IMG/VR virus record: IMGVR_UViG_3300031364_000091 | Location: 1-20,142 of that record | Origin: a virus | Reading direction: 5' to 3' (one strand) | DNA length: 20,142 nucleotides | In this document: piece after piece, positions 873 to 14,696 of the stretch | How positions within the stretch are numbered: the stretch's first letter is position 1 | Layout of the letters: every line of letters starts with the position of its first letter | Program-made: the position numbers and the translations under genes | The notes under the pieces: generated by a model | What the model was told of the DNA's origin: nothing | The model's database searches: none | The model's input: the letters and a program-made list of their open reading frames with translations, nothing else

Positions 873-1185
873 CGGGGACCTCCTCGCGGAAAATGACGCT
901 GGACCATGGGTAATGACGACGGCGGCCGCGCGTGGTGAGCACGAACACGCCGTCGGCGTCTATCCCCTCCACTCGCGCATGGTCGCCCAACGGGGCGAGG
1001 CCGGTGCTGTCCGGGAAGCGGAGCCAGACCTCCCAGTGGGTTGACTCTCGTTCAGGGACTCGCAAATCATCCTGCGGAACTGCCGACACTTGAACGTCAG
1101 CATGATCCCTATGACCAGACACAGGAACAGAACGATCATCTGGTGCCTTTGGTGTCGAGGGCTGAAACTTGCGGCTAGTGCGCAT
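865..1185 (-). CDS. Small conserved-looking protein between terminase and portal
   Basis: A 106-residue protein of unknown function. The N-terminal third is polar and low in complexity. The C-terminal half (from THWEVWLRFPDS to YPWSSVIFREEVPGG) looks like a small beta-rich fold. The ATG at 1185 lies inside the terminase 3' end (11-base overlap) and has GGAG six bases upstream, so I prefer it to longer in-frame extensions within the terminase gene. Its stop overlaps the portal GTG by 8 bases, so the three genes are likely translationally coupled. Its position suggests a packaging or head-assembly accessory role, which is inference only. I recognise no family. Confidence 0.7.
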   Translation of the reverse strand: MRTSRKFQPSTPKAPDDRSVPVSGHRDHADVQVSAVPQDDLRVPERESTHWEVWLRFPDSTGLAPLGDHARVEGIDADGVFVLTTRGRRRHYPWSSVIFREEVPGG

Positions 1186-2653
1186 GGCTACTCCGTCGCT
1201 GGGCAGCCAACTGCCGCAGGTGCTGTTCGCGTTCGCGCTGCTCGAGCCGAGCCGCAAACTCAGGCGTCCCAGGCTTCGGCTCATCGCGGCGAGGGACGTA
1301 CCGGTTCGGCGCGGCAACCGCTCCGTAGCGCATGGCGTCGAGCAGGTCGTGCCTGTAGCGGTCGTCGTGGTTCGTGCGCTTGTCGTTCCAGGTGACGGTC
1401 CGCAGCTGCCCGATCGTCTCCTGACACCGCTCAGTCGAGATCTTCAGCCGACCGCTTGTGAGCAGGCCGTCGACCCAACAGATCTGCCCCTCGGCGTTCA
1501 GTTTGTTCGCCGGCTCGACGCAGAGGCCATGCTCGTCGGACCAGTGCTGGACGAAAGCCTTACCGAGCCCGCCCGAGTCGGCCGTGATAAGCACCGGGCG
1601 ATACCGCGCATGCCATCCGAGCAGATGGGCCGCCGCCGCTTCGGGGCCGAGGCCCGCCCGCGCGAACTCGTCGTCGACGTAGATCTCGGGGAGCCCCTCC
1701 TGCCAGCGCTCGAGCACCATGGCAAACTGGGCCACGACGCCCGGGTCAGCGCTGATCAAACACTTCCACGTGCCCATGTCGCGATCGAGCTTGCCCCACA
1801 GAGCATTGCGCCCGGAGTCGTAGTGGTAGCAGAGAGCGGTCGGGTCATCGCACCAAAGCCCGAGATACTCGCGCTGGAACTGCGGGGTTTCCCAGGTCCA
1901 ACCGTTGTCGTCAAGCACCTTGCGGAAGTACTGGTCAGCGGGCGTGCGCAGGAAGGGGTTGTCGCGTGCGTCCCAGTGGTGGACGTGCCACTTCTTCTGC
2001 CCGTCTCCGGTTGAGACGCCGTACAGGTAGCCGCTCATGACCGCGCCCGGGCTCGACGCCAGCGCCATTTCACCGTCGAAGTCCATGAGCGCCGGTTGGA
2101 CGCCCTCAACCACCAGCTCCTCCAGGTAGTCCACGAGGGCCATGGCCTCGTCGCCGCACCAGGCAACGAGCGGGGAACCACGGATAACGCGGATGTTCAG
2201 CCGGTTCGGGCAGCCATGGATCCAGGTCCTATGTCCGTTCGGCCAGCGCAGGTACAGCAGCCCGTCGCGTCGTTCCCAGCGAAGCGGCAGCCCAGCATCC
2301 TGAGCGATGAGCACGGCGGGCTCCAGGATCTCTCGCGCGCGGCCCATCGTCACCGCCGTGTAGGCCGACAGCCCGTGCGGGTACTGTGCGCCGACTCGTG
2401 CGAACCGACCGAGGATCCCCAGGCTCTTGCCGCCGCGCCGTCCAGAGATGGCCACGGCCGGCCCCCGGTCGAGCGCAAACGCTTTCTGCTTCGGGTGCAT
2501 GCGGTCGACGAACCGGGTCATTGCGTAGGACGCCCGGTTCTCTCGCTCCCACTGCAGCACCCAGGGCTGGGCAAGCAGGCGCTTCTGGGCCGGGGTCAGC
2601 ATGACGATCGCCAGGATGAGTCCAGCGAGGAAGCCGCGCGCAAAGTCATTCAC
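1175..2653 (-). CDS. terL: Terminase large subunit (TerL)
   Basis: The motor ATPase and nuclease that pumps phage DNA into the prohead and cuts the concatemer. With the GTG start at 2653, a Walker A motif SGRRGGKS lies at about residues 70-77 and a Walker B motif VAWCGDEA at about 163-170. The C-terminal RNase H-like nuclease domain has its acidic positions in ISADPG, ITADSGG and RHDLLDAMRYG. The length (492 residues) is normal for TerL. GTG 2653 overlaps the previous stop (GTGAATGA). An in-frame ATG at 2683 and an ATG at 2602 (MLTPAQKRLL) are alternatives; the ATG at 2602 would remove an odd hydrophobic N-terminal stretch, FLAGLILAIV. Flanked by a TerS-like gene and the portal gene. Confidence 0.93.
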   Translation of the reverse strand: MNDFARGFLAGLILAIVMLTPAQKRLLAQPWVLQWERENRASYAMTRFVDRMHPKQKAFALDRGPAVAISGRRGGKSLGILGRFARVGAQYPHGLSAYTAVTMGRAREILEPAVLIAQDAGLPLRWERRDGLLYLRWPNGHRTWIHGCPNRLNIRVIRGSPLVAWCGDEAMALVDYLEELVVEGVQPALMDFDGEMALASSPGAVMSGYLYGVSTGDGQKKWHVHHWDARDNPFLRTPADQYFRKVLDDNGWTWETPQFQREYLGLWCDDPTALCYHYDSGRNALWGKLDRDMGTWKCLISADPGVVAQFAMVLERWQEGLPEIYVDDEFARAGLGPEAAAAHLLGWHARYRPVLITADSGGLGKAFVQHWSDEHGLCVEPANKLNAEGQICWVDGLLTSGRLKISTERCQETIGQLRTVTWNDKRTNHDDRYRHDLLDAMRYGAVAAPNRYVPRRDEPKPGTPEFAARLEQREREQHLRQLAAQRRSSHAH

Positions 2654-2717
2654 GGCCAGCCCCCAAGTCGCGCAGGAAGCCATCGGGGTCGGTCAGGATC
2701 GAGCTCACGGCGATCAT
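2646..2717 (-). CDS. Tiny ORF between terS-like and terL
   Basis: A possible 23-residue peptide, MIAVSSILTDPDGFLRDLG followed by AGRE, that fills the only gap between the TerS-like gene and terL. The ATG at 2717 sits 1 base after the TerS stop, with GGAGAAGG upstream, and its TGA overlaps the terL GTG. The same frame stays open upstream, so ATG 2783 would give 45 residues with a very basic helix overlapping the TerS C-terminus, but that start has no good SD. It may act mainly as a translational coupler. No family recognised. Confidence 0.4.
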   Translation of the reverse strand: MIAVSSILTDPDGFLRDLGAGRE

Positions 2718-2718
2718 C

Positions 2719-3369
2719 TCAGCCCTTCTCCGTTCGAGCTTGCTCCGGTTCACGTGCTCCAGACGGAGCGCGTTGTGCTTCATCGCCCGACGGATCGCCC
2801 GACGGTCCCAGCGCTTGCTTCGAGCCGGCTCCGCAACTCTCCGTCCCATCAGGCTGCCCATCCTTCGGACAGTACTGCGCGGCCAGCATCTTGAGCACCT
2901 CCTCGGGCGGGATCCGTGCGAGCTCGGTCCCCTCGGAGTGATGCCCGAGCAGCAAGCCGTGGTAGCCCTGCAAGTCCCGATGACACCGGGCCGCAAGCTC
3001 CTCGTGCCGCGTCGCGAGAAATTCGACCTTCCAGAGCAGCTTTATGTTGTTGGCCTTCAGCAGCGCATCCGCTCTCGCGCGAAACATCTTCGCCCGGTCG
3101 AGGTGGCGGTACATCGCGCTCGCCAGCTCCTGCTCGTGCTCGCGGACCGTGTTCAGCAGCCAGCCCTTGGTCGTCTCGTCTTCCGCGATCTCGCACTGGA
3201 CAGCCGCGCGGGCCGCTATCACGCACCGGCCGAACTCCGCCGTCGAGTCGCAATCCCCCGTAGCCTTCCAGTGCTCGCGTAGCTGCCTCTGTACAGTGAC
3301 CGTCCAGCGACCGGATCGCATCAGTCGTGCGATGGTCGAGACGCGTGCTTGACGGCGCTCGTCCCTCAC
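2719..3369 (-). CDS. Putative terminase small subunit (DNA-recognition)
   Basis: A 216-residue protein directly upstream of terL. Residues about 10-37 (VSTIARLMRSGRWTVTVQRQ and following) look like a helix-turn-helix segment of the kind small terminases use to bind the pac or cos site. The middle is helical (about 60-150), as in TerS oligomerisation domains, and the C-terminal ~45 residues are a polar, probably disordered tail. The start is GTG at 3369, overlapping the preceding TGA in a GTGA junction. The call rests on position, size and the HTH-like N-terminus. A sequence family match was not made, and another DNA-binding role is possible. Confidence 0.5.
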   Translation of the reverse strand: MRDERRQARVSTIARLMRSGRWTVTVQRQLREHWKATGDCDSTAEFGRCVIAARAAVQCEIAEDETTKGWLLNTVREHEQELASAMYRHLDRAKMFRARADALLKANNIKLLWKVEFLATRHEELAARCHRDLQGYHGLLLGHHSEGTELARIPPEEVLKMLAAQYCPKDGQPDGTESCGAGSKQALGPSGDPSGDEAQRAPSGAREPEQARTEKG

Positions 3370-3458
3370 CTACCACGGCCGCCCTTTTTGCCCCCGCGCG
3401 ACCCCTTGCCGGAACCCCGTCCGCCTCGACCGCCGCGTCCCTTGCCGTTGCTGCACAT
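3366..3458 (-). CDS. RGG/glycine-arginine-rich micropeptide
   Basis: A 30-residue peptide, MCSNGKGRGGRGGRGSGKGS followed by RGGKKGGRGR. It has GGAG eight bases before the ATG and a TGA that forms a GTGA overlap with the TerS-like gene. Composition is almost only Gly, Arg, Lys and Ser, with three RGG triplets and a net charge of about +12. Such RGG-box peptides usually bind nucleic acid, but no function is established here. The SD and the exact 4-base overlap argue that it is translated. Confidence 0.55.
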   Translation of the reverse strand: MCSNGKGRGGRGGRGSGKGSRGGKKGGRGR

Positions 3459-3554
3459 GGTGTTCGCTCCGGGTTGGTGGCCGGCCGGGTCGGAGCTCTT
3501 GGCCCTCTCGTGACCAGGCCGACTACTCTCCCAGGATGACACGACGTAGACCGG

Positions 3555-3579
3555 CGGTCCAGACCAAAAGTCTAGACCG
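3555..3579. other. Hairpin at the end of the 191-aa gene
   Basis: Ten-base arms CGGTCCAGAC and GTCTAGACCG pair with one mismatch around a CAAAA loop. On the minus strand the hairpin spans the TAG stop (3572-3574) of the 191-aa gene. No U-run follows, so it is not a standard intrinsic terminator. It could slow read-through, protect an RNA 3' end, or be a protein site. The 113 bases between this stop and the RGG peptide hold nothing else I can support. Confidence 0.4.
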
Positions 3580-4147
3580 GTGTACGAGACTCTGGCTCGT
3601 GGCTGGGTCCTGGCGTGGCCTGCTCCTTCAAGGGTTCCTCGCGAAGAATGCGCCAGCCCTTCCGGGAACACTCTTGCTTGGCCAGGTCGTACTGGAGCAA
3701 GGTCCCGCTCCCTGTCCTCAGCGTCTTCTCTTGGAATCCTTCTAGAGTCCGGATCCTCCATGCCCGCGATCCGCTCTGTTCAAGCCACACCTCCAGTGGG
3801 TCGTTCAGGACCCGGAAGCGAAGCGAACGCATATTGTCCAGGGCGTTCGTTAGGTCAGTGCCGAACCAGTGGACGCGCCCCGAACTGTCGTAGGCCTTCC
3901 AGGATCCGTCATCCCACCGGATCGAGCAGGTGCCCTCGGACTGTTCCGGCTCGGGTGCCGGCTCCTTCTGCCGTTCGGCCCAGTCGTTGAGCAGCAGGCA
4001 AATTATGAATTCGCCGTACTCCGTCAGGCTGGGCTTCGCGCCGTCCTCCAGACGCAGCAGGACCTCATCGCGATCGGTGTCTACCAGTGCCCACTGCTGG
4101 ATCCCGCTGCTGAGTGCAGGGATCCTCTTCCAGTTGAATCTGCTCAT
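3572..4147 (-). CDS. Hypothetical protein, 191 aa
   Basis: A 191-residue protein with a well-placed AGGAG before its ATG (4147), which overlaps the stop of the Lar-like gene by 4 bases (ATGA). Residues 1-60 and 75-165 look like two small alpha/beta segments; the second contains CSIRWDDGSWKAYDSSGRVH. They are separated by a Glu/Pro linker (about 62-72), and the protein ends in a polar tail. There is no signal peptide or TM segment. I do not recognise a family. The gene is the last before a 113-base gap that leads into the packaging genes. Confidence 0.75.
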   Translation of the reverse strand: MSRFNWKRIPALSSGIQQWALVDTDRDEVLLRLEDGAKPSLTEYGEFIICLLLNDWAERQKEPAPEPEQSEGTCSIRWDDGSWKAYDSSGRVHWFGTDLTNALDNMRSLRFRVLNDPLEVWLEQSGSRAWRIRTLEGFQEKTLRTGSGTLLQYDLAKQECSRKGWRILREEPLKEQATPGPSHEPESRTPV

Positions 4148-4449
4148 GTTGAACTCCTGTAGTTCCAGGCCAAAGCAGCTTCGACCTTAGTCGCTCTGCG
4201 CGGCCCAAGGATGTTGCACGATCGACCGGAGCATTCGACGACCCCGTCTGGAACGTCAGGAATGAACCGCGCCGGTCCTCCGCAGAACGGGCACGGCAAC
4301 AACTCTGGCGGCTCGGGGTCCGGGAGTTCGCCGGTCATCTCGACCCAAGCACCACCCCAGACAGATGGCCCTTCCGGTGGGACAGGTCTCACCTCACCGT
4401 ACTTCCCGTCGTCGCGTACGAACACCCACAACTTCACTGCCTTTGCCAT
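4144..4449 (-). CDS. Lar-like (restriction alleviation) zinc-ribbon protein
   Basis: A 101-residue protein whose C-terminal half follows the Lar_restr_allev pattern: LLPCPFCGGPARF (Cys53, Cys56), then VVECSGRSC (Cys73, Cys78), then ALAWN. In that family a CPFCGG ribbon and a terminal W-N are the hallmarks. Some members, such as Rac prophage Lar, counter host type I restriction; for most phage copies the role is unproven. The N-terminal 45 residues are unlike the short N-terminus of typical Lar and include KLWVFVRDDGKYGEVR. Start ATG 4449 has AGG upstream and overlaps the preceding gene by 16 bases. Confidence 0.65.
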   Translation of the reverse strand: MAKAVKLWVFVRDDGKYGEVRPVPPEGPSVWGGAWVEMTGELPDPEPPELLPCPFCGGPARFIPDVPDGVVECSGRSCNILGPRRATKVEAALAWNYRSST

Positions 4450-4637
4450 CGTTTCGCCTGCTTTCTGCGACATGCAAGCCTGCTGCCTACATCGTCGCCC
4501 TTTTCCTGATTCGTCACGTGCCAGCGACCACAGTCCCGGCACAGGTAGGGCCGGATGCGGAAACCGGCCTTTGCGTGAGCAGCCCTCGCCGCGTGTGCCG
4601 ACTCGTAGGCCCGCTTGAAGCAGGTCACTGCCGGCAC
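4434..4637 (-). CDS. Small phage zinc-ribbon-like protein (CxxCGxWHVT)
   Basis: A 67-residue protein starting at GTG 4637, inside the end of the upstream gene. It has the layout of a common phage protein: a basic helix KRAYESAHAARAAHAKAG, then YLCRDCGRWHVTNQEKG, where the CxxCG knuckle and His probably bind zinc. The C-terminus is basic (RRKQAKRW). Function in the family is unknown. It overlaps its neighbours by 13 and 16 bases. Confidence 0.7.
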   Translation of the reverse strand: MPAVTCFKRAYESAHAARAAHAKAGFRIRPYLCRDCGRWHVTNQEKGDDVGSRLACRRKQAKRWQRQ

Positions 4638-4834
4638 CCGTTGCCGTCGTCACACCCGGCATCAAACCACATCCGCAACCACTCCATGTCGATGACACCC
4701 AGCTCGCCGCAAATGAACTCCCCGGTGTCCTTCAGCTGCCAGATAGCATCACGCTTCAGCCACCGACAGAACACCACGCGAGGCCAAAACCAGAGCGTTC
4801 GAGGGGGCCCCACACGCTCAATCACCGAGCACAT
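4625..4834 (-). CDS. Hypothetical protein, Trp-rich, 69 aa
   Basis: A 69-residue protein, rich in Trp (six) and hydrophobic residues, with a C-terminal DAGCDDGNGCRQ. The ATG at 4834 has GAGG just upstream. A GTG at 4852 in the same frame (6 residues longer) is the alternative. Both starts overlap the upstream zinc-ribbon gene, by 13 or 31 bases. No family recognised. Coding is supported mainly by its fit in the overlap chain. Confidence 0.55.
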   Translation of the reverse strand: MCSVIERVGPPRTLWFWPRVVFCRWLKRDAIWQLKDTGEFICGELGVIDMEWLRMWFDAGCDDGNGCRQ

Positions 4835-5025
4835 CCTTCCCTCGAACCACACTTCCGCAGCCCGTCCTTGTGCCTCGCCCGTCGCTCACGGAAGTACTTG
4901 GCGACGCAGGGCTTGCACCAGCAATGGAGCCCGTCCTTGTTCCTGGACGCCTCCGGATCCCGCGGTGAGAAGTCCGATCGCGGTTTCATCTGCCCGCACC
5001 GGACGCAAAGCCTGGTCTCGGTCAC
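4822..5025 (-). CDS. Small four-Cys zinc-binding protein
   Basis: A 67-residue protein. CVRCGQMKPRSDFSPR, then LHCWCKPCVAKYFRERRARH, gives two CxxC knuckles about 25 residues apart with a K/R-rich tail. This is the pattern of the zinc-binding N-terminus found in phage HNH and endonuclease-VII-like proteins, but no catalytic HNH motif follows. It may therefore be a stand-alone DNA-binding ribbon. Start GTG 5025 shares GTGA with the stop of the lipoprotein gene. Confidence 0.7.
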   Translation of the reverse strand: MTETRLCVRCGQMKPRSDFSPRDPEASRNKDGLHCWCKPCVAKYFRERRARHKDGLRKCGSREGCAR

Positions 5026-5573
5026 TTGGCACCCGCCTTCCGCTTCGCCGCGGCAACGTCGTTGTCGCTCACCTGCATGGCCGCCGAACGCCAGCACATC
5101 GCGTCGGCCGGGTCGTCTGACTTGGGGAGTCCGCACACTCGGCCGACCAAGTAGAGGCTCTGCTGGTACCAGTTCTGCGCCGACACCAAGTCTGTCGCTA
5201 TCTCGATCCGGCCGTCCGGTGAGTAGTGAATAGCGTAGTCGTCGCACAGGCTGACCTCGATCCGCTCCGGGCAGCACGCGCCGTCGGTCCGCACGCACCA
5301 GGCCAGCCGCGCCCGCTCCGTCAGCTCTCGGTCATAGTCGGTCAGGGGACCGTGCTTCTCACCCATACCTACCATGTCCCCAAGAGCCTCGTAGTTGGGC
5401 GAGCAGCCGGACACGAGCCAGAGCAGTGTGAATAGGCCGACTATCCAGGCAGCGACGAGCAGGTACAGCCGAGCAACCTGACACCCTGGAACCACGCGCG
5501 CGCGAGTCGGTGGGCCGGTTATCTCGCCCGTCTGCCTATCGACTGGTGACAGTGGTTTTCCCGATGTTTTCAC
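5022..5573 (-). CDS. Putative lipoprotein / membrane-anchored protein
   Basis: A 183-residue protein starting at GTG 5573, with GAGGTG upstream. After a 34-residue polar N-terminus comes a hydrophobic segment (LYLLVAAWIVGLFTLLWL, about 36-53) that ends in VSGC, a good lipobox with Cys57 as the possible lipidated residue. The rest is soluble, with six further Cys (for example TDGACCPERIEVSLCDDYA) that could form disulfides outside the membrane. The polar N-region is long for a type II signal peptide, so a plain TM anchor is the alternative. Its role could be superinfection exclusion or lysis control; both are inference. First gene after the long hairpin. Confidence 0.7.
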   Translation of the reverse strand: MKTSGKPLSPVDRQTGEITGPPTRARVVPGCQVARLYLLVAAWIVGLFTLLWLVSGCSPNYEALGDMVGMGEKHGPLTDYDRELTERARLAWCVRTDGACCPERIEVSLCDDYAIHYSPDGRIEIATDLVSAQNWYQQSLYLVGRVCGLPKSDDPADAMCWRSAAMQVSDNDVAAAKRKAGAK

Positions 5574-5676
5574 GATGGCACCTCACTTTTCCAGCATGAA
5601 TACAGGCACAAATCTCAGTGGTTACAGCCTTTCCGGCCCATGTCCCAGCAGTGGCACCACTCGCCACAGGGAGGTT

Positions 5677-5741
5677 GGAGTGAGTGGTGAGTGGAGTCCC
5701 CCCCCTGTAAGGGGGGGACGATCCACTCGCCATCACACTCC
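5677..5741. other. Long imperfect hairpin with a 9-bp G/C core
   Basis: The core GTCCCCCCC / GGGGGGGAC pairs perfectly around a CTGTAA loop. Pairing continues outward: GAGTGGA with TCCACTC (two-base bulge), TGG with CCA, then GGAGTG with CACTCC at the ends. The whole fold is about 65 nt. It lies 43-107 bases past the helicase stop and about 105 bases before the lipoprotein GTG, in the 210-base gap between them. No U-run follows on either strand. Candidates are a rho-independent-like pause, an RNA processing or stability element, or a leader structure. Confidence 0.6.
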
Positions 5742-5783
5742 GGCGCGAACCGGTTAGGGGACCGACCCGATCGAGCTCACCAC

Positions 5784-7250
5784 TCATGCGTCACCACCTT
5801 CGTCTTCGGAGCACGGCAGCCAGAGCGTTGCGCGTTTCGGGCCGGCCACCCAGCGAATCTTGCGGGCGATCTGAAGGCGGTCGAGGGACTGTTGGAGCTG
5901 GGCTCCGCGTGAGTAGTCGAGGACCGCTGAGAGCTGACGGCAGCTGAGGTTGGGGTTGTCGGTGACGGCCTTGAGGACTCGGGCGTCGAGGGCGTTCAGG
6001 CGACGTTCGCGGATTTCCTCTTTGCTGGGCTCAGCCTCGGCCAGAATGAGCAGGCCAGCGTGGGTGTCGCCGTCCTCCTCGACGTCGACGAAACGCAGCG
6101 AGAAGGGCGCCTGGGCCCGTCCGTTGGTCCTCGCCTTTTCGTGGGTGACGCGGACCACGGTCTCGGCCTGGTCGTGTCGCTGTAGATCCAGGAGGAAGAC
6201 GGAACTGGCCGCGTCGAAGATGGCGCTCGAGCCACGAAGCTTCTCACGGCCGTCCGAATCGTCGTGGGGTGATGACTTGCGGCCGTGGGTGATGATGACG
6301 ACCGCACAGCCGGTCCGTTCGCTGATTCTGAAGCAGAGGTCGATGATGCGCCGGAAGTCGCTGGAGTTCTCATCGAGTCCCGGGGCCAGGGCACGGAGGC
6401 TGTCCAGGATCCACAGCGTCTTTCCTTCGCAGGCTCGGCACCAGTAGCTCTCTGCATTGGGGTCGGTGAGGTACGGGCCCAAGACCTCGAGTTCGAGCCG
6501 GTCCGGGAACAGTTCGGTTGGGTCGATTTGCATGCCAACGGCCAGGCGCTGGTAGCGTGCTCGGGTGAGTCGCGCGCCCTGCTCGTAGTCCGAGTGTAGG
6601 ACAGGGCCGCACACCGCAGCGAAGGCGCCCCAGATTGGTTTCCCGCTGGCGACGGCGAGGGCCATGGCCTGGGCCGCAGACGTCTTCCCGCTGTAGCCGT
6701 AGCCGGCGAGCAGCGCGGGCGGGCCCGGGAGCAGGTCGAGCGACTGGCAGACCCACGGGGTTGGTGGCAGCGGTTCGAAGATGGCGCGCGCGTCGAGCCG
6801 GCTGGTTCGGGTCCGTGATGACTCGCCCAGCGCCTCGAGCCGGGACTGGATGCGAGAGCGCAGCTCGTCCGACTCGGTCTCGTCGGACAGGGCCGAGACC
6901 TCGGAGCTGAGCAGGCGTAGCTCGCGCCGTGACCAGAGCTCGCGGATCCGGGTGGCGTGCCGTGGCAGGTCCTTGGGCAGGACGTAGGGGGAGTCCAGGA
7001 GCTGGACGAGGTAGGCCGAGCCGCCGACTTGCTCGAGCCGGTGCCGATCGTGGAGCCAGCTGGCGACGCCGGGCAGGTCACGCGTTCCGTCGAGCTCGCG
7101 GCACGCGTTGAAGATCCATCGGTTGGCGTCCGAGTAGAAGTAGCGGGGCTCGAGCTCGACCGAGAGGGAGCTGTCGGAAAGCAGGGCACCGAGCACGGCA
7201 CCTTCGGCGTCGAGGTCACTGGGTGGGACTCGTTCGTCTGGTTCGGTCAC
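5784..7250 (-). CDS. Replicative helicase: DnaB_N domain fused to a RepA-like ATPase
   Basis: A 488-residue protein. Residues ~10-110 match the DnaB N-terminal domain (PPSDLDAEGAVLGALLSD, then YFYSDANRWIFNACREL), which contacts primase. Residues ~160-395 are a RecA-fold ATPase of RepA/AAA_25 type: Walker A GYGYSGKTS (183-191), Walker B LWILDS (279-284), VVIITHGRK (317-325) and RGSSAIFDAASSVFLLD. The C-terminal ~75 residues look like a winged helix (LSCRQLSAVLDYSRGAQLQQ). It should unwind DNA at the phage fork. The GTG at 7250 has AGGTG upstream and a GTGA overlap with the previous stop, so I prefer it to the longer ATG at 7289. No primase gene is seen in the window. Confidence 0.85.
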   Translation of the reverse strand: MTEPDERVPPSDLDAEGAVLGALLSDSSLSVELEPRYFYSDANRWIFNACRELDGTRDLPGVASWLHDRHRLEQVGGSAYLVQLLDSPYVLPKDLPRHATRIRELWSRRELRLLSSEVSALSDETESDELRSRIQSRLEALGESSRTRTSRLDARAIFEPLPPTPWVCQSLDLLPGPPALLAGYGYSGKTSAAQAMALAVASGKPIWGAFAAVCGPVLHSDYEQGARLTRARYQRLAVGMQIDPTELFPDRLELEVLGPYLTDPNAESYWCRACEGKTLWILDSLRALAPGLDENSSDFRRIIDLCFRISERTGCAVVIITHGRKSSPHDDSDGREKLRGSSAIFDAASSVFLLDLQRHDQAETVVRVTHEKARTNGRAQAPFSLRFVDVEEDGDTHAGLLILAEAEPSKEEIRERRLNALDARVLKAVTDNPNLSCRQLSAVLDYSRGAQLQQSLDRLQIARKIRWVAGPKRATLWLPCSEDEGGDA

Positions 7251-8179
7251 CAGGGCACCTCGTCTCGCACGCGCAGATCCTGTGGCCATTCGCGGGGGTC
7301 GTGGCTGATGATGCCTTCGACCTCGAGGGCCTTGACGTGCGCGGGCACATGAGCGTCACGGCACTGTTGCACAACCGAGCGGATCCAGGCGACGTCGCAT
7401 GGTCGGCGCCTGGGACCCGTCTCTGGGCCGACGGCGACGAAGGCTGGCGCTACTCCGGCCCCGACATCGCCAGAAAAGTCGATGGGACCCAGCAACGGCT
7501 CGATGCTCAGCCAGTAGTGCGCAGCCGGTACCTGACGCAGGTGATCCCACCGAGCTTCGAGTGTCGGCTGATTTTCGGCGCTGATGCCGAGCCACGCATT
7601 CGGGAGAGGCCACGGACCGTCAGGGTCGGCGCAGCGCTTGCGATGCAACAGCCCATCTTCCGAATCGTACTGGAGCGCTCGGCTGCAACACTCCAGCAGG
7701 CTCTGCCCTGTTGGTTGCTGGTACTCCAGCCAATCGTGGAACCTCGCCATCCGCTCCGGCCGCTTCGTGAGCAGCAAGAACGTCAGGTGCTGGCACGCCG
7801 CCATGACACCGAAGACCGCGGCAATGAATTCGAATGGCACGCGCTCGTGGAACAAATCCCCCATGAATTGTACTGCTACCACAGCAGGCTTGCGCCAGTG
7901 AAGCGGCTGGCTCAGACGTTCCGGGAAGAGCACGACCTCGCCCGACCACCGCCCGTTGCGCGTGCTCGCGTCGCAATGTCTGTTCGCCATGCGTTCCGCC
8001 CAGCACCCGCCGCCAGACCTATCGCCGCATCCTGGCGAGACACGTGTGCAGCCGTGGGATAAATTCCATCGCCGAGCGGCGTTGAAGTAGTCAGCCATCA
8101 TCGCACCCTTTCCCAAATCGCCTGGCGGTACTCGACGCCGTCGAAACACCCGGCCACAGATGCAGCACCGCTCAGCCAT
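7247..8179 (-). CDS. DUF5131 / phage Gp37-Gp68 family protein with extra zinc-knuckle N-terminus
   Basis: A 310-residue protein. The body carries the family signposts in order: WNLSHGCTRVSPGC, GRWSGEVVLFPERL, FMGDLFHERVPFEFI, FLLLTKRPERM, WLGISAENQ, YWLSIEPLLGPIDF, VGPETGPRRRP and a terminal EWPQDLRVRDEVPW. Family function is not firmly known; the N-terminal three-Cys motif is its hallmark. Here the second and third Cys (51 and 59) are separated by seven residues, where family members commonly have two. A 27-residue extension, MAERCCICGRVFRRRRVPPG and following, precedes the usual start. ATG 8179 has AGGAG at ideal spacing; a second SD precedes ATG ATG near residue 27. Overlap with the previous gene is 8 bases. 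Confidence 0.8.
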   Translation of the reverse strand: MAERCCICGRVFRRRRVPPGDLGKGAMMADYFNAARRWNLSHGCTRVSPGCGDRSGGGCWAERMANRHCDASTRNGRWSGEVVLFPERLSQPLHWRKPAVVAVQFMGDLFHERVPFEFIAAVFGVMAACQHLTFLLLTKRPERMARFHDWLEYQQPTGQSLLECCSRALQYDSEDGLLHRKRCADPDGPWPLPNAWLGISAENQPTLEARWDHLRQVPAAHYWLSIEPLLGPIDFSGDVGAGVAPAFVAVGPETGPRRRPCDVAWIRSVVQQCRDAHVPAHVKALEVEGIISHDPREWPQDLRVRDEVPW

Positions 8180-8426
8180 GTAGGTCTCCTGCAAATAGAT
8201 CGCCGACCTTGGGGTCTCTCACCACGCAATACGGAGTTCCCGTGTGGCCACATGAGCACGTAGGGGCCATGAGCCCGCGCAGAGAGCCGCAGACGAACGG
8301 AATGGAGGTTGTGAGAGCCTCACCGCACTTGCTACACGGATGACTGAACGGCTCCAAGCCGTAGCGCGCTGCCCATCGCCTCACGTCAACACCAAAGATT
8401 CGCAAACACTTGTTGCGGTTGATCAC
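8172..8426 (-). CDS. Zinc-ribbon protein, 84 aa
   Basis: An 84-residue protein starting at GTG 8426 behind a strong AGGAGG. It has a basic N-terminal helix, then HPCSKCGEALTTSIPFVCGS and APTCSCGHTGTPYCV, which together give a Cys-pair zinc ribbon. It ends in DPKVGDLFAGDLHG. The stop overlaps the DUF5131 ATG by 8 bases. A nucleic-acid-binding role is plausible from the ribbon alone; the family is not recognised. Confidence 0.7.
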   Translation of the reverse strand: MINRNKCLRIFGVDVRRWAARYGLEPFSHPCSKCGEALTTSIPFVCGSLRGLMAPTCSCGHTGTPYCVVRDPKVGDLFAGDLHG

Positions 8427-8441
8427 GACGCGACCTCCTGA

Positions 8442-8594
8442 TTACCCACGGCGCAACCTCCTGAGCCTGGCGCCCGAGAGCGTGGCGTAGGTGTTGACCC
8501 GGTCGGTGCGCGAACAGACCCACATGTCGGTTCCGGCACCGAACCGGCAGACGACAAACCAGTGGCCGCGGATGCGACCGGTGAGGTCAGGCAC
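8442..8594 (-). CDS. Small protein, 50 aa
   Basis: A 50-residue ORF, VPDLTGRIRGHWFVVCRFGA continuing to a basic end (SGARLRRLRRG). The GTG at 8594 forms an 8-base GTGCCTGA overlap with the upstream stop, and GGTGG lies upstream. It fits the overlap chain and has a beta-rich N-terminus, WFVVCRFGAGTDMWVCSRTD. Function unknown. The stop is TAA at 8442, 16 bases before the next GTG. Confidence 0.5.
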   Translation of the reverse strand: MPDLTGRIRGHWFVVCRFGAGTDMWVCSRTDRVNTYATLSGARLRRLRRG

Positions 8595-8880
8595 GGATAC
8601 CATTCCACCTTTGAAAAGCAGACCCTGTTAAAAAGCAGACCCCTTTGAACAGCAGACCCCGGCCATTGCTCTTGGCCCACTCCGCACAGGAGCGGGTCTG
8701 TGGTCCCCGGTCGCACCTGATTCGCAACAGCAGATTGTCGGTGCACTCGAGTACCGGTTGCGAATTGTCCGGATCCACGCCCATCGCGTGGTAGTACTCG
8801 GCCGCGCACGCCAGGGCGTCCCCTGGGCTCTCGGCGACTAACCAGTCGGGGCCCAGCTTGTGGACGTGCAGGTCAGGCAT
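8587..8880 (-). CDS. Hypothetical protein with repeat-modified C-terminus, 97 aa
   Basis: A 97-residue protein starting MPDLHVHKLGPDWLVAESPG. Residues 1-70 look like a compact alpha/beta domain with two Cys (LRIRCDRGPQTRSCAEWAKS). The C-terminal 25 residues are encoded by three copies of a 17-base repeat read in three different frames (LLFKG, VCFLTG, SAFQRW), so this tail is probably not conserved. The start region carries the AAGGAGGAC-type junction sequence, and its 8-base overlap with the upstream stop (ATGCCTGA) fits the local pattern. Function unknown. Confidence 0.65.
   Translation of the reverse strand: MPDLHVHKLGPDWLVAESPGDALACAAEYYHAMGVDPDNSQPVLECTDNLLLRIRCDRGPQTRSCAEWAKSNGRGLLFKGVCFLTGSAFQRWNGIRA
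8609..8660 (-). repeat. 17-bp tandem repeat, three copies, inside a gene
   Basis: On the plus strand the core AGCAGACCC recurs at 8617, 8634 and 8651, exactly 17 bases apart, each preceded by CTTTGAAA, TGTTAAAA or CTTTGAAC. Because 17 is not a multiple of three, each copy of the overlapping gene (8587-8880, minus strand) is translated in a different frame. The full array is 51 bases, so the downstream frame is kept. Confidence 0.85.
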
Positions 8881-9061
8881 CGGTCTCGTCCTCCTTGTCG
8901 TTATCTTCGTCCTCTGGAGCGAACTGCTCAGGCATGCATCGGCTGCACCCGTGACACTCCTGAAATCCTGTGTTCAGGCATCCTGGACAGACACCAGGAT
9001 CGCCGTCTGGAAAACAGGCGCACAGCATGCACTCGCTGTAACCGCTGCCATCACAAGCCAT
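8873..9061 (-). CDS. Cys-rich zinc-binding protein, 62 aa
   Basis: A 62-residue protein starting MACDGSGYSECMLCACFPDG. It has ten Cys in CxxC- and CxxCxxG-type spacings (CPGCLNTGFQECHGCSRC), similar to DnaJ-type or rubredoxin-like knuckles, then a very acidic tail (EDEDNDKEDETD). It probably binds one or two zinc ions. The ATG at 9061 follows AAGGAGGACAAGACC, and the stop overlaps the next ATG by 8 bases. Function unknown. Confidence 0.65.
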   Translation of the reverse strand: MACDGSGYSECMLCACFPDGDPGVCPGCLNTGFQECHGCSRCMPEQFAPEDEDNDKEDETDA

Positions 9062-9404
9062 CGGTCTTGTCCTCCTTCATGAGCTCGGCGAGGCGCTCAT
9101 CCGTGATGCCGCGAAGCGATTCGGCCAACGCTTCCTTGGCAGCCTCGTACTCGATCTCGGAAGCGTCGTCATCCTCTGGTGTTGTCCGTATCCACGCACT
9201 GCGTGTCACCGCGAACGTCACTGCCGCCCGCAGCACCGCGGTCTCCTCTGGCGTGCGCAGGAGTGAGCGGAGGCGATCTTGCCAGGGATCCAGCTTCTCC
9301 AGTTCCTCCAGCGCATCCTCGCACCGACCAGTGCCTGCGCGCGAGGCTGCATAGACCACGACACTCAGCGCGTCGAGCAATTCGGGTCCGGTTGGGTCAA
9401 CCAT
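9051..9404 (-). CDS. Paralog A of an inverted gene pair, 117 aa
   Basis: A 117-residue protein. Residues 1-59 (MVDPTGPELLDALSVVVYAA and following) are nearly identical to residues 1-59 of the plus-strand protein at 13964-14413, and the C-terminal KEDKTD matches its KEDKTN. The middle differs: here it is a helical, acidic segment with TTPEDDDASEIEYEAAKEAL. The conserved N-terminus is helical with a DPWQ-RLRSLL motif. Function unknown. The ATG at 9404 overlaps the upstream stop by 8 bases (ATGGTTGA). The gene ends 11 bases inside the next one. Confidence 0.75.
   Translation of the reverse strand: MVDPTGPELLDALSVVVYAASRAGTGRCEDALEELEKLDPWQDRLRSLLRTPEETAVLRAAVTFAVTRSAWIRTTPEDDDASEIEYEAAKEALAESLRGITDERLAELMKEDKTDGL
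9240..9404 (-). repeat. Inverted duplicate segment, copy A
   Basis: About 165 bases, on the minus strand, that match 13964-14128 on the plus strand at roughly 80% by eye, including exact runs such as CTGGAGGAACT and GAGAAGCTGGATCCCTGGCA. Similarity stops in mid-gene after about codon 59. Confidence 0.85.
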
Positions 9405-9942
9405 GGGCGTCTCCCTTCGACGGCACGTAGGCGGGGCCGATCTCGCGCCATAACCATTCGACAGTCCTACTACCAGGAACTCCCATGGCAGCGCGCAAAC
9501 AGCGTCCTATGAGTTCTCCGTTCTCAATGGAGCAGACCTCTATTAGTCTCCCGTCCCTCACCTCCGGCGGCCACGGCTTCCACTCGCGCGAAGCCTCAAG
9601 GAACCGCATCCTGTCCCGTAGCTGCTGCTCGCTCTCGTACACCGGCCCAGCATCGTCGCGCATACGCTCGATCAGATCCTCGAGCTCAGCTACCTTTTCT
9701 TCTGCGGCCTGGCTAGCGTCGTGAAGCTCTTCGCTTCTCATGAGCAGTTGGCGCACGTCAGCCCGAGCAAGGGCCGCGTCAGCTGCAGATTCGTCGCGCT
9801 CGGACTCGAGCTCAGCGATTCGCAACGTCGCCCCGTCGAGTGCCGCCTCCAGCGCACGAATCGTGGCCGCCTTGCGCCGAAGCGCGGTGCGCAGGTCGTC
9901 GTGCCGGCGCCGGAGCAGTGTGGCGAGGGCTCGGCGGATCAT
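9397..9942 (-). CDS. Coiled-coil protein, 181 aa
   Basis: A 181-residue protein. After a basic start (MIRRALATLLRRRHDDLRTA), residues about 22-100 form a long heptad-rich coiled coil (RALEAALDGATLRIAELESE; EEKVAELEDLIERMRDD). A small globular C-terminus then contains WKPWPPEVRDGRLIEVCSIE and EWLWREIGPAYVP. The ATG at 9942 shares ATGA with the upstream stop and has GAGGG before it. This rules out the much longer upstream extension in the same frame. Function unknown; the coil suggests oligomerisation. Confidence 0.7.
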   Translation of the reverse strand: MIRRALATLLRRRHDDLRTALRRKAATIRALEAALDGATLRIAELESERDESAADAALARADVRQLLMRSEELHDASQAAEEKVAELEDLIERMRDDAGPVYESEQQLRDRMRFLEASREWKPWPPEVRDGRLIEVCSIENGELIGRCLRAAMGVPGSRTVEWLWREIGPAYVPSKGDAHG

Positions 9943-10139
9943 ATTGCACCCTCTTTCATTCCAACAAGCTCCTCGGTGGCATTCCACAACCGCCGCAGGG
10001 CTTCGCGTTCGTCGCGCACACTTTTTTGATTGTCGGAAACGAACGCTTTCCCATCCACCGATACCGCTGCACCCACACGAGCGACGGTTGCGTACCAGTC
10101 GCGCGCCGCCTGCAGAACCGCTTTCTGCTGGCGAGTCAC
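9939..10139 (-). CDS. Small helical protein, 66 aa
   Basis: A 66-residue, mostly helical protein, VTRQQKAVLQAARDWYATVA and following, with a central AAVSVDGKAFVSDNQ and a second helix REALRRLWNATEELVG. GTG 10139 sits behind GGAGG at ideal spacing and forms a GTGA overlap with the previous stop. I prefer it to ATG 10184, which would overlap the neighbour by 49 bases. It resembles short phage helical proteins of unknown function. Confidence 0.6.
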   Translation of the reverse strand: MTRQQKAVLQAARDWYATVARVGAAVSVDGKAFVSDNQKSVRDEREALRRLWNATEELVGMKEGAI

Positions 10140-10369
10140 GGCCGCCTCCGGAAGCACGGGCAGGTCTGGGGGCAGTCGCCACATGGAACCACGGACGCCA
10201 TCAGCGGAGTGGCATCACAACGACCAGCGAATACTCCCGCCCGAAAATGCTCACATTCCTCCGCGTGGTCCCCAGGCCGCGCCTTGCCCCTGTCACGCTC
10301 GGCACGGATGGTACGGGACAGCTCCTCGAGCTCATCACGCACCGACCTCAGTTTGGTCCGTGTCTTCAT
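10136..10369 (-). CDS. Small Cys-rich protein, 77 aa
   Basis: A 77-residue protein. A basic coiled N-terminus (MKTRTKLRSVRDELEELSRT) leads to HAEECEHFRAGVFAGRCDA and VVPCGDCPQTCPCFRRRP. The Cys and His residues suggest a zinc or metal site. The ATG at 10369 shares ATGA with the upstream stop. Function unknown. Confidence 0.6.
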   Translation of the reverse strand: MKTRTKLRSVRDELEELSRTIRAERDRGKARPGDHAEECEHFRAGVFAGRCDATPLMASVVPCGDCPQTCPCFRRRP

Positions 10370-10644
10370 GGCTGCGGCTCCTCCGCTTTCATGGCGGACT
10401 CGAATGCATCCACCGCGTGAATCCATGCACCCTGGAGCCGCAGCACCTTGGCCGCTGTTTCGTGGAATACGATTTCGGCTAGGATACGCCGCCCCTCGAA
10501 CTCGACCGAATCACCTGAGCTTGGCAGTGCTCGCCTGGCCTCCAAGTGTTCGCGCAATGCAGCCAAATAGTCCACCAATAGCCGGCACACCTCGCGGGAC
10601 TCGTAGCAGTCGAACTTGTCGTCTGGAATTCTACCTTGTCGCAT
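10366..10644 (-). CDS. Hypothetical protein, 92 aa
   Basis: A 92-residue protein, mostly helical, starting MRQGRIPDDKFDCYESREVC with GAGGAGG at ideal distance upstream. It overlaps the end of the lysozyme-like gene by 14 bases. The middle contains SVEFEGRRILAEIVFHETAA. No family recognised; no TM segment or signal peptide. Confidence 0.6.
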   Translation of the reverse strand: MRQGRIPDDKFDCYESREVCRLLVDYLAALREHLEARRALPSSGDSVEFEGRRILAEIVFHETAAKVLRLQGAWIHAVDAFESAMKAEEPQP

Positions 10645-11134
10645 GTCGTACCTCCTCGAGTAGTCGAAACACCATGGACACCCGTCGTCGTGCCCAGCCA
10701 GCCTTGCACCGGGCTAGGCCACTGTTCGCCGCGATGCCGCCTTCGACTGTGTGACAGCGCGCGAACCCGGAGCGGAAAGCACGGAGCGAGCACGAGGCCC
10801 CGGCAGCCCACCGCTCGACGTCGGTGCTCTCCTGGTCCCACGCGGCACGGCACCAGGCATGGACCTGCCATGGACCGGTAGCGCGCCCCTCGTCGCACCG
10901 GACACCGACCGGCATGTCCTGGCATCGCCCCTCTATCACTGCGCGCGCGAGCCGGGTCTCATCGTAGGCCTGCCGAGCGAGGTAGGCGCGTTCAAGCGGA
11001 GTACGCCCAATGCCACACACGACTGCGGCGACGGGACGGTACAGCTCGGTGCGCTGCTCGCCCGACTCGTGGGCGTCGAGGTACCACGGGGCCAGGGCCA
11101 GCCACGCGCGCAGGATGATGGAGATGCAGGTCAC
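10631..11134 (-). CDS. Lysozyme-like / lytic transglycosylase-type protein
   Basis: A 167-residue protein that follows the SLT/lysozyme-like layout: a helix ending in AYDETRLARAVIEGRC with Glu59 as the likely catalytic residue, then GVRCDEGRATGPWQVHAWCR (the A-x-G-x-W-Q-x-H strand segment), and a C-terminal GFARCHTVEGGIAANSGLAR. Paired Cys residues around these segments could form disulfides. It would cleave peptidoglycan. There is no clear cleavable signal; the first 18 residues are mildly hydrophobic. GTG 11134 shares GTGA with the RuvC-like stop. Placement among replication and recombination genes, far from the cell-wall genes at the right end, is unusual. The call is from motif pattern only. 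Confidence 0.55.
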   Translation of the reverse strand: MTCISIILRAWLALAPWYLDAHESGEQRTELYRPVAAVVCGIGRTPLERAYLARQAYDETRLARAVIEGRCQDMPVGVRCDEGRATGPWQVHAWCRAAWDQESTDVERWAAGASCSLRAFRSGFARCHTVEGGIAANSGLARCKAGWARRRVSMVFRLLEEVRHATR

Positions 11135-11658
11135 TTGGCACTCACCGAGGCAAAGCAGTCGCCCCTGAGCTCGCTCAGCCCCCAGTTGGCGCAGGTCATG
11201 GCGTCGCACAAGTCGTTGTCTGGGGCGAACGGGGCCCCGGCCGCTTTCCACGCAGAGACGACCTCGAGCTTGGCTTTGCCCTTCGCAGGCGCGTGACCGA
11301 GCAGGAGTCCGCGCGCGCTGCTCATGTTCGCGACGGTGACGACGAACCCATCACGGTACAGGTCCAGCTTGACAGCGCCGTGGAGTTCTCCGGCCGCATG
11401 AGAACCGTGCTCACCGAAGGCCGGGTTCTCCACATAGGCGTAGACACGCTCCATAGGATTGCGGAGAGAACGTAGCGGGGAGAGCATGGTGGTGATGCTG
11501 TCAAGTCTCCCGATTTGATCCATCGCGTTCCTGCTGGCTGGAGTGGCCGGCTCGATTACACCGGTGACGATCTGCCCCCAATCCCTGCGCCAGGACAGTG
11601 GCACCGCTACCCACGCGGTCCTGCGCAGGGACAGGTCGAGCCCCACGACCCAGGTCAT
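11131..11658 (-). CDS. RuvC-like Holliday-junction resolvase / nuclease
   Basis: A 175-residue RNase H-fold nuclease. The RuvC catalytic set is present: Asp8 in VVGLDLSLRRTAW, Glu77 in AYVENPAFG, and Asp149/Asp152 in DNDLCDAMTCANWG, with the D-x-x-D spacing of RuvC Asp138/Asp141. Phages use such enzymes to resolve branched replication or recombination intermediates before packaging. ATG 11658 shares ATGA with the upstream stop. A longer in-frame start is rejected because it would overlap that gene. Confidence 0.8.
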   Translation of the reverse strand: MTWVVGLDLSLRRTAWVAVPLSWRRDWGQIVTGVIEPATPASRNAMDQIGRLDSITTMLSPLRSLRNPMERVYAYVENPAFGEHGSHAAGELHGAVKLDLYRDGFVVTVANMSSARGLLLGHAPAKGKAKLEVVSAWKAAGAPFAPDNDLCDAMTCANWGLSELRGDCFASVSAK

Positions 11659-12314
11659 TTCTGCACCAGGCGCAGGCGGGGATCCTCGCCCGGCTTCTCG
11701 CACCGTTCGATCGTCTCGTAGCCGATGAGCTCAGCGATCGCATCATCGACGTCCTTGACAGAAAATCGCGAGAGCTCGTTTGCGATGGCGTGATAGTTGC
11801 GCTCTATGCCATCGGACAGAAGGTAGCTAACGGCCGCCATCGCCGCGTCCAGCTGGTCATCGTCCAGCCCGTTGTGCAGTTGCCGTTCGTCGTCGCGCAT
11901 GGGCCGCTCCTCGAGCTGCTCACCCGTGTCGACGCGGATCTCCGTCACCTTGCCGAGCCGGAAGTCGAAGCGACGTTCGCACGGAACGAGCCGGTACTCG
12001 CGCTTGTCTCGGACCGTTGCCAGCAGCGCGTCGGCCTCGTTCTGCAGCCGTTTCACCGTGGCTTTCGCGGTGGCGTCGGCTTCTTTCCTGGCCTCCTCCG
12101 CCTCGTGCGCTTCCTTCGACAGGTGAGCGGCCCTGTCCCCGACCCCGAGCAGCTCCTGTTCGGTGAGCAGCACGGGCAGCCGTTGCTGGAAGGGCTCGAT
12201 CTTGAGGTCGGTCGGGAGCTTGTCGGCTTCCTTCATGCGTTTCGCCACTGCTCGTAGCTCCTCTGCGTCGGTGTTGATCACGGGCACTTGTTGCTTTTTG
12301 CGTCTCGTTGCCAT
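11655..12314 (-). CDS. Coiled-coil phage protein with DTGE segment, 219 aa
   Basis: A 219-residue protein. A basic start (MATRRKKQQ) is followed by a coiled coil (about 62-100, AHLSKEAHEAEEARKEADAT and following). A segment YRLVPCERRFDFRLGKVTEI then RVDTGEQLEERPMRDDERQ resembles a conserved block seen in many phage early proteins of unknown function. The C-terminal ~60 residues (AVSYLLSDGIERNYHAIANE and following) look like a winged helix. ATG 12314 has GGAG upstream and lies 37 bases inside the repressor gene. It is the first gene after the repressor in the minus train. Confidence 0.75.
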   Translation of the reverse strand: MATRRKKQQVPVINTDAEELRAVAKRMKEADKLPTDLKIEPFQQRLPVLLTEQELLGVGDRAAHLSKEAHEAEEARKEADATAKATVKRLQNEADALLATVRDKREYRLVPCERRFDFRLGKVTEIRVDTGEQLEERPMRDDERQLHNGLDDDQLDAAMAAVSYLLSDGIERNYHAIANELSRFSVKDVDDAIAELIGYETIERCEKPGEDPRLRLVQK

Positions 12315-12535
12315 GTCTTCTCCAGTCTCTTCCAGTCGTCTCCGTAGAGCAGAGAGAGTAGGGGGATGTGCAGTGCGCGCGCCATGGCCATGGCCACGGT
12401 GACCGACGGGTCCGTGCCGCGCTCGATCATCTTCTGCACTGACGTTGGATGCAGTCCGCAGGCCCGCGAGAGGTCGAACCGGGTCAGCCCCCGTGCTTCT
12501 CGGGCCTGCTCCACTCGTTTGAGGAAATCGTTCAC
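12278..12535 (-). CDS. XRE/Cro-CI family repressor
   Basis: An 85-residue protein with a helix-turn-helix at about residues 15-40 (GLTRFDLSRACGLHPTSVQK), then VAMAMARALHIPLLSLLYGD, as in HTH_3 proteins. It is a single DNA-binding domain with no C-terminal protease or oligomerisation domain, so it resembles Cro or short repressors more than full CI. GTG 12535 is the probable start. A -10-like TACTCC (12544-12549) close upstream suggests a nearly leaderless mRNA. The palindrome at 12570-12585 lies just upstream and is a likely target. An ATG at 12577 is possible but falls inside that palindrome. Confidence 0.85.
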   Translation of the reverse strand: MNDFLKRVEQAREARGLTRFDLSRACGLHPTSVQKMIERGTDPSVTVAMAMARALHIPLLSLLYGDDWKRLEKTWQRDAKSNKCP

Positions 12536-12569
12536 GGTTCTGAGGAGTACCAGACTGGGCAGGGGCGCG

Positions 12570-12585
12570 CAAGACAATTGTCTTG
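12570..12585. promoter_or_regulatory. Perfect 16-bp palindrome, probable repressor operator
   Basis: CAAGACAATTGTCTTG is its own reverse complement. It sits in the 103-base gap between the divergent XRE repressor and nuclease genes, and its last three bases form the start of TTGACT, a -35-like hexamer for the rightward gene. It is AT-rich relative to the flanks. This is the expected position for a repressor that blocks the rightward promoter and its own promoter. Binding is inferred, not shown. Confidence 0.75.
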
Positions 12586-13460: not shown

Positions 13461-13971
13461 CCGACGCAGGCCCAAGACGTGGGACGACCTCTATCACAAG
13501 CGATTCCTGAACGCGGAAAGCTTCCAGGGCAAGAAGGTGACCTTGACCATCACAGACCTGTACGTGGACGAGCTACCGGACGACAGCGGCAAGATGGAGG
13601 ACCACGGGCTGTTGAACTTCAAGGAGACGAAACGAGAGATGAAGATCAACTACACGAACGGGACCTGCATGCGTCTGATGTTCGGTATCGACGACCCTAC
13701 GAAGCTCATCGGTCACCGGGTCACGTTCTACCCGACAAGCGTGCCGTTCGGGAAGGAGATGAAGCTCGGGATCCGAGTGTGGGGCAGCCCCGAGCTCGAG
13801 CATGACATGGTCGTAGAGGTACCGATGCCGCGCCGGAAACGTCCCGAGCGCCACACCATGCACGCCGTGCGCAAGGGCCAGCAGCAGGCACAGGAGACGG
13901 AAACCAAACACGAGCCAGAGCCCGAGCCAGAACAGCACGGGGACGCATGGGAGGGACCGGACGATGGGTGA
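13450..13971 (+). CDS. SSB-like OB-fold protein with acidic tail
   Basis: A 173-residue protein. Residues 26-115 have the pattern of a phage protein group with an OB-like fold: FQGKKVTLTITDLYVDELPD, then HGLLNFKETKREMKINYTNG, then LIGHRVTFYPTSVPFGKEMK, then GIRVW. After a basic patch (PRRKRPERH) comes an acidic C-terminal tail, EPEPEPEQHGDAWEGPDDG, which recalls the protein-contact tail of SSBs. A single-strand-binding or annealing-partner role beside the exonuclease is inference. The start is GTG 13450 with AGGGGG upstream. Confidence 0.65.
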   Translation: MASDRRRPKTWDDLYHKRFLNAESFQGKKVTLTITDLYVDELPDDSGKMEDHGLLNFKETKREMKINYTNGTCMRLMFGIDDPTKLIGHRVTFYPTSVPFGKEMKLGIRVWGSPELEHDMVVEVPMPRRKRPERHTMHAVRKGQQQAQETETKHEPEPEPEQHGDAWEGPDDG

Positions 13972-14128
13972 TCCTACAGGACCCGAACTGCTCGACGCGC
14001 TCAGTGTCGTGGTCTACGCGGCATCACGTGCAGGGACGTCTCGGTGTGAGGATGCACTGGAGGAACTCGAGAAGCTGGATCCCTGGCAAGAGCGTCTCCG
14101 CTCCCTCCTGTGCACGCCCGAGGAGACC
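13964..14128 (+). repeat. Inverted duplicate segment, copy B
   Basis: Plus-strand partner of the segment at 9240-9404. The two copies are 4.6 kb apart in inverted orientation, flanking the repressor and nuclease control region. In principle, recombination between them could invert that region. Confidence 0.85.
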
Positions 14129-14413
14129 GACATTCTACGCGCCGCACGACTGTACGGTGTTGCTGCCAGGGCACTCGAGCGAGACGCTACCTGTACCGAG
14201 GGGACAATCAACACGCCGCTACTCCGTCAACAGCGCAGCGAACGGTGGCGCGAGTTGATGGCCGCGCTTGAGGGATCACTCGAACCCGGAGCGCCTGTGT
14301 TCTCCTGCTCGTGCCCATGTTGCGGTGCCACGCTCGAGGTTGAGTGCGGTGACGCACCAGGCACCCTGGGTGTGTGTGGCGAGCTCACGAAGGAGGACAA
14401 GACCAATGCCTGA
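13964..14413 (+). CDS. Paralog B of the inverted gene pair, 149 aa
   Basis: A 149-residue protein. Residues 1-59 (MGDPTGPELLDALSVVVYAA and following) and the last nine residues (LTKEDKTNA) match paralog A on the opposite strand. The middle is unrelated: RLYGVAARALERDATCTEGT is followed by a helix and a Cys-rich segment, VFSCSCPCCGATLEVECGDA, that could bind zinc. The ATG overlaps the upstream stop by 8 bases (ATGGGTGA). Function unknown. The mosaic structure suggests recombination between conserved ends. Confidence 0.75.
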   Translation: MGDPTGPELLDALSVVVYAASRAGTSRCEDALEELEKLDPWQERLRSLLCTPEETDILRAARLYGVAARALERDATCTEGTINTPLLRQQRSERWRELMAALEGSLEPGAPVFSCSCPCCGATLEVECGDAPGTLGVCGELTKEDKTNA

Positions 14414-14696
14414 CCCAGGACAAGGACTGGTCGACCTCATGGTGCGTCGCCTGCGCCGGGGACGGGTGCCGCCCAACGCCAACCACCTGGAGGGCCACCG
14501 GTACGGGCAGTGGCTCGTCGTGGGTCTGGCCGGGTCCGGCTACGGCAACGGCGAGCGGGTCTGGAGGTGCGAGAGCCAGACCCGGCCCGGGGTCGTGCGC
14601 GTCATGACCGCGGGCAAGCTCAGGCTCTGTGCAGCCCGAGCAGTGCGAGCTGACAGGACATGGCCAGCGCAATCTCCACATGAGCCGGCTGAATGA
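14406..14696 (+). CDS. Small phage protein, degenerate CrCdCG-type domain, 96 aa
   Basis: A 96-residue protein. GHRYGQWLVVGLAGSGYGNG, then RVWRCESQTRPGVVRVMTAG and KLRLCAARAVRADR, follows the outline of a common phage zinc domain (GxRxGxWxVxG...WxCxCxCGxxxxV...SCGC). Most of the expected Cys are replaced: only two remain. It may therefore be a decayed or remodelled copy. ATG 14406 overlaps the upstream stop by 8 bases (ATGCCTGA) and is preceded by AAGGAGGACAAGACC. The 3' end overlaps the convergent gene by 77 bases. Confidence 0.55.
   Translation: MPDPGQGLVDLMVRRLRRGRVPPNANHLEGHRYGQWLVVGLAGSGYGNGERVWRCESQTRPGVVRVMTAGKLRLCAARAVRADRTWPAQSPHEPAE

Follow-up and report, generated by a model that had tools for sequence, protein, structure and literature searches.

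The closest described counterpart of the locus considered here comes from the Cluster I mycobacteriophages, where the same arrangement was published for genes 67/68 of Island3 in comparison with Brujita (PMC3029335). There, an orphan gene of Island3 has its 3' end in common, at the DNA level, with the gene upstream, and a relative without the orphan retains just one copy of the repeat, which is a hybrid (PMC3029335). Short repeats of another kind are known from the Cluster K mycobacteriophages, whose 13-bp Start-Associated Sequence (SAS), GGGATAGGAGCCC, is present in 11-19 copies per genome (PMC3203893). Short conserved boundary sequences have also been described for the mosaics of lambdoid phages, according to work cited in PMC3029335 and PMC2327257. 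As for the homology that such exchanges call for, the minimum quoted for efficient recombination by Red or RecA is about 30 bp, and inverted repeats with 22% divergence still support inversion by lambda Red (1.5e-4; PMC2327257).

The window analysed here, of 20,142 bases, is an entire IMG/VR viral record (IMGVR_UViG_3300031364_000091), possibly itself a fragment. Two of its genes, A and B, resemble each other at both ends, and the first-pass annotation of this DNA took them for paralogs with conserved ends and exchanged middles, that is, a variable cassette between two fixed ends. As discussed below, the two ends appear to be alike for different reasons.

The record and its nearest relative

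The window encodes a PHROG terminase large subunit of the tailed-phage kind, a DnaB-type helicase, a DUF3799 PDDEXK protein and an SNF2-type helicase. At its 3' end (18078-18166), the gene of the SNF2-type helicase holds about 4 copies of a 21-bp tandem repeat, GAAACGAACCCCCCTGTTCAT, which give the protein C-terminal heptapeptide repeats, HETNPPV. Another gene, at 4147-4698 on the minus strand, encodes a protein whose C-terminus matches the Lar family of restriction alleviation proteins (PF14354, E 1.2e-7). Gene A belongs to a leftward gene set and gene B to a rightward one, and the two inverted copies do flank the region that had been read from the letters alone as a repressor region; a regulator gene with a Cro/C1-type HTH lies between them (Table 1).

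A second record, IMGVR_UViG_3300031585_000005 (hereafter L003), has a terminase 97% identical to that of the window and is collinear with it, on the opposite strand, over window positions 1-11394. Further relatives with the slot that holds A and C were sought through gene D and through the gene at 9397-9945, and L003 was the only one recovered; a search for a host by way of terminase relatives in GTDB genomes gave none. The products of A, B, C, E and of ORF X of L003 had sub-threshold matches only in Pfam, NCBIfam, PHROGs and PADLOC, as did that of D in Pfam, PHROGs and PADLOC. Gene D has a 17-bp tandem repeat (2.8 copies) at its 3' end, 8614-8661, where its C-terminus is unlike that of the L003 homolog, which ends earlier.

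Table 1. Features of the window around genes A and B
Feature	Position	Strand	Description
Gene D (MPDLHV...)	8587..8880	-	downstream of C; homolog at L003 1655-1909, where the upstream neighbour is X
Gene C	8873..9061	-	62 aa, Cys-rich; unrelated to A; between two direct copies of the module; not in L003
Junction module C/D	8878..8896	-	AAGGAGGACGAGACCGATG; L003 homology begins exactly at 8896
Gene A	9051..9404	-	117 aa; N-terminal 61 residues in common with B; remainder acidic, helical; end ELMKEDKTDGL
Junction module A/C	9059..9077	-	AAGGAGGACAAGACCGATG; last codons of A are the SD, spacer and ATG of C
N block in A (SD and codons 1-61)	9222..9416	-	195 nt, 82% identical to 13952-14146, inverted
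HTH_3 gene (Cro/C1-type HTH)	12278..12577	-	E 6.7e-9; divergent region between A and B
N block in B	13952..14146	+	195 nt, inverted match to 9222-9416
Gene B	13964..14413	+	149 aa; 61-residue start as in A; helical middle; Cys-rich end; final residues ELTKEDKTNA
Junction module B/E	14390..14408	+	AAGGAGGACAAGACCAATG; SD and ATG of E
Gene E (MPDPGQG...)	14406..14696	+	downstream of B; unlike C and D past the first three codons

Genes A and B

The likeness of A and B at their N-termini is slightly longer than first thought: where about 59 shared residues had been counted, alignment of the two proteins gives 61, of which 55 are identical (90%). At the DNA level, a similarity put at roughly 80% by eye comes to 82%, and extends from the AGGGA ribosome-binding site, 12 nt upstream of the ATG, to codon 61. 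A repeat finder places the two arms 4,535 nt apart. Between the two blocks, of 61 codons each, 22 differences are synonymous and 8 are not (Ks 0.68, Ka 0.06), and the resulting Ka/Ks of about 0.09 marks the block as a real conserved protein segment under purifying selection. The best reading of these sequences is that A and B form an old paralog pair, not a recent copy, and would be small helical proteins in divergent operons. Within the record the segment occurs in A and B only. Searches of phages, plasmids, IMG/VR (with the single sequence and with the alignment) and GTDB genomes returned no relatives of the 61-residue segment.

Past codon 61 the DNA identity drops sharply, from 82% to background. 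The two middles do differ in character, A being acidic and B having a Cys-rich tail, and similarity between them does not rise above that of shuffled sequences in either protein (p 0.72 and 0.97) or DNA (p 0.15 and 0.26), apart from a weak leftover at codons 62-74 (p 0.03). That said, when divergence was simulated at d = 0.68, the Ks of the N block, with 3-6 indels, similarity as low as that observed turned up in 22-32% of runs, so the missing similarity is a weak argument for exchange; at d = 1.0 the figure was 57-75%.

Predicted structures bear on the same point. AlphaFold models, built from the alignment of the pair, reach moderate confidence for A (pLDDT 67) and very low confidence for B (pLDDT 46), and place helices at residues 7-23, 28-37, 41-48, 52-73 and 80-96 of A and at residues 7-23, 28-36, 42-48, 52-77 and 85-105 of B. 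The order of the predicted helices is alike up to residue ~105, and B adds a Cys-rich hairpin, an end that is probably metal-binding and possibly zinc-binding. Codon 61 falls inside predicted helix 4, with no domain border there. A Foldseek search with the A model gave no match below E 0.1.

These observations leave considerable room for plain divergence, in which A and B would be homologs over their full length, the N-terminus constrained, the rest fast-evolving, the Cys-rich tail gained by B, and nothing exchanged. The corresponding helices, the simulations and the residual similarity past codon 61 all fit such a history; the abruptness of the change at codon 61, the protein comparison of the middles and the derivation of the models, with the low score of B, speak against it, and we put its chances somewhat below even. 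The first proposal, that unrelated middles were exchanged, agrees with the lack of detectable sequence similarity, but exchange is not established by it, and divergence within a helical bundle fits too. Past residue 61, replacement and divergence beyond recognition are held to be about equally likely, and neither alters the argument about the tail.

The junction module and its slot

A second match between A and B lies at their 3' ends (9056-9087 and 14380-14411; 32 nt, 91% by the repeat finder). The conserved last 8-9 residues with KEDKT, reported earlier as a property of the pair, are a real match, but this end is not specific to A and B, as its core also closes gene C, and what is conserved is nucleotide rather than protein sequence. 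Gene C has nothing but this module in common with A or B. The core of the module, AAGGAGGACRAGACCNATG, occurs at 3 sites in the window, against 0.01 expected, and no other gene start in the window carries it. Read directly from the sequence, all three sites have AAGGAGG as a full Shine-Dalgarno (SD) sequence and an ATG that is the start of the next gene (C, E or D), and the stop of the upstream gene falls just within that next gene, as in ATGCCTGA. In the frame of the upstream gene, AAG GAG GAC AAG ACC reads KEDKT, and doubles as SD and spacer.

The substitutions in the tail point the same way. Compared over ten codons, the tails of A and B agree at every third position (10/10), and each of the three changes between them is non-synonymous; in the N block third positions agree in 38 of 61 codons, and at that rate the chance of 10/10 is 0.009. 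Frozen third positions together with non-synonymous changes indicate that nucleotides are conserved in the tail, not the peptide. Judged on these grounds, the common KEDKT end is the SD and start codon of the next gene and not a feature of the protein, and the overlap of stop and start would couple translation of the two genes.

L003 has a different gene in the same slot. Between its orthologs of gene 9397-9945 and gene D, where the window has A and C, lies ORF X (L003 1405-1662; 85 aa, MPDWSHRS...LAELSAWKEDKTDA), which is without the 61-residue segment and ends in KEDKTDA. ORF X was considered as a homolog of A, at 30% over 81 aa, and rejected when p went from 0.003 to 0.11 once the KEDKT tail was removed. 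On the D side, homology between L003 and the window begins at the first base of the module. At the single junction of L003 the core is that of A (AAG, against GAG in C), with an A-like CTCGCCGAGCT upstream, and on the downstream side stands the C/D version (ATGCCTGACCTG). Such a hybrid is the leftover expected from a crossover between the direct repeats around gene C, a correspondence that is suggestive and involves few diagnostic bases. The idea of a cassette between fixed ends holds in a modified form, for genes: the gene-junction ends are fixed and the whole small gene varies (A and C against X). It does not hold within the protein, as a middle set between conserved termini; the 61-residue N-terminus is a separate matter and is lacking in L003.

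The best explanation is, in our judgement, quite probably a paralogous pair combined with gain and loss of gene cassettes through short repeats at coupled stop/start junctions. Two separate things would then coincide, namely the old paralogs A and B and a junction module at their 3' ends. Any gene ending in the module would keep the start signal of the gene downstream, so that recombination between modules could bring whole small genes in or out and leave the operon unharmed. On the junction reading, ORFs that fill the slot between the orthologs of 9397-9945 and 8587-8880 would end in AAGGAGGACRAGACC. We infer that the module was spread by recombination rather than by convergent selection, and convergence on a good SD could contribute to its occurrence. 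Counting against this explanation are the single relative, a 19-nt core that is shorter than the minimal homology of ~30 bp, and the small number of diagnostic bases in the hybrid junction. The process is phage gene mosaicism at gene borders, an ordinary kind of shuffling, and the shared tail has a clear molecular reason.

The module pattern is also found beyond this lineage. Across IMG/VR the exact 19-mer pattern occurs in 10 contigs, 8 of them distinct (L003 included) and every one at a gene junction, while a permuted-spacer control gave 5 contigs, 4 distinct, with about 2 at junctions. The 19-mer was considered as a widely mobile element and rejected, 8 distinct contigs against 4 being near the level of SD use alone. 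Because counts of this size are expected from SD selection alone, by a rough estimate, the outside matches are treated as convergence, their uniform frame being curious. Seven of the distinct contigs are further, unrelated viral ones (L005, L006, L007, L008, L010, L012 and L013), and in these the upstream gene is always in the same frame, with KEDKT or KEDET right before the stop.

A bolder proposition, which we regard as unlikely, is that the lineage keeps a portable "tail-plus-start" module, with frame, SD and stop/start overlap all fixed, upstream of which orphan genes slot in, and that the copies in its two divergent operons make up a permanent system of gene exchange. Were this true, arbitrary orphan genes could be inserted with the start signal of the next gene preserved.

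Other explanations fare worse. One is a modular protein whose 61-residue N-terminus and KEDKT end would each be functional, on either side of an exchanged middle that serves as a specificity cassette. The sudden fall of DNA identity past codon 61 would suit such a protein, as would 8 extra nt (CGAGCTCA) that A and B have in common upstream of the module. However, two genes without that N-terminus, C of the window and X of L003, have the same tail, third positions in the tail stay fixed where its amino acids vary, and codon 61 is within a predicted helix rather than at a domain border, all of which makes the modular protein improbable. Weakest is inversion, first envisaged as a flip of about 4.6 kb by homologous recombination and taken here as a switch in which the inverted N blocks would turn over the regulator region and swap the operon tails behind the two N-termini: arms of 195 nt, 82% identical and about 4.5 kb apart, make it possible in principle, given what lambda Red can do with inverted repeats 22% diverged (PMC2327257), but it is very improbable here, with short arms whose longest exact run is 23 bp and whose conservation is accounted for by coding selection, no match to PF00239 or PF00589, the serine and tyrosine recombinase domains of an invertase, resolvase or integrase, on a contig that is possibly a fragment, and an L003 that is collinear, not flipped, across 8.9-11.4 kb, the part it covers short of copy B.

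Comparison with known systems

Genes A and B show in compact form that the ribosome-binding site of a neighbouring gene can pass for a conserved protein terminus, and they caution against taking short C-termini common to overlapping phage genes as protein motifs. A repeat at an overlapping stop/start junction would also allow gene gain and loss without damage to the operon, and may help to explain why gene borders and recombination borders coincide in phages.

The likeness to lambdoid mosaics is drawn from their description in the work cited above: in both, module borders lie at short sequences at gene edges. SAS offers a more specific parallel, as an SD-containing repeat just upstream of an ATG, at non-structural genes, with conserved bases beyond the SD. 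In contrast to SAS, the module has another sequence, is present in 3 copies and lies within the coding end of the upstream gene.

The strongest resemblance is to Island3 and Brujita, phages to which the searches made gave the window phage no relationship. In both cases there is an orphan gene of similar size, and unrelated neighbours (A and C in the window) have a 3'-end repeat in common; as in the relative described there, L003 is without the extra gene and has one hybrid module, with few diagnostic bases. The Island3/Brujita repeat is longer, at ~50-60 bp, compared with a 19-nt core between A and C and 32 nt between A and B. Unlike the repeat of those phages, the core described here can be recognised as the SD and start codon of the following gene, and it recurs in a second operon.
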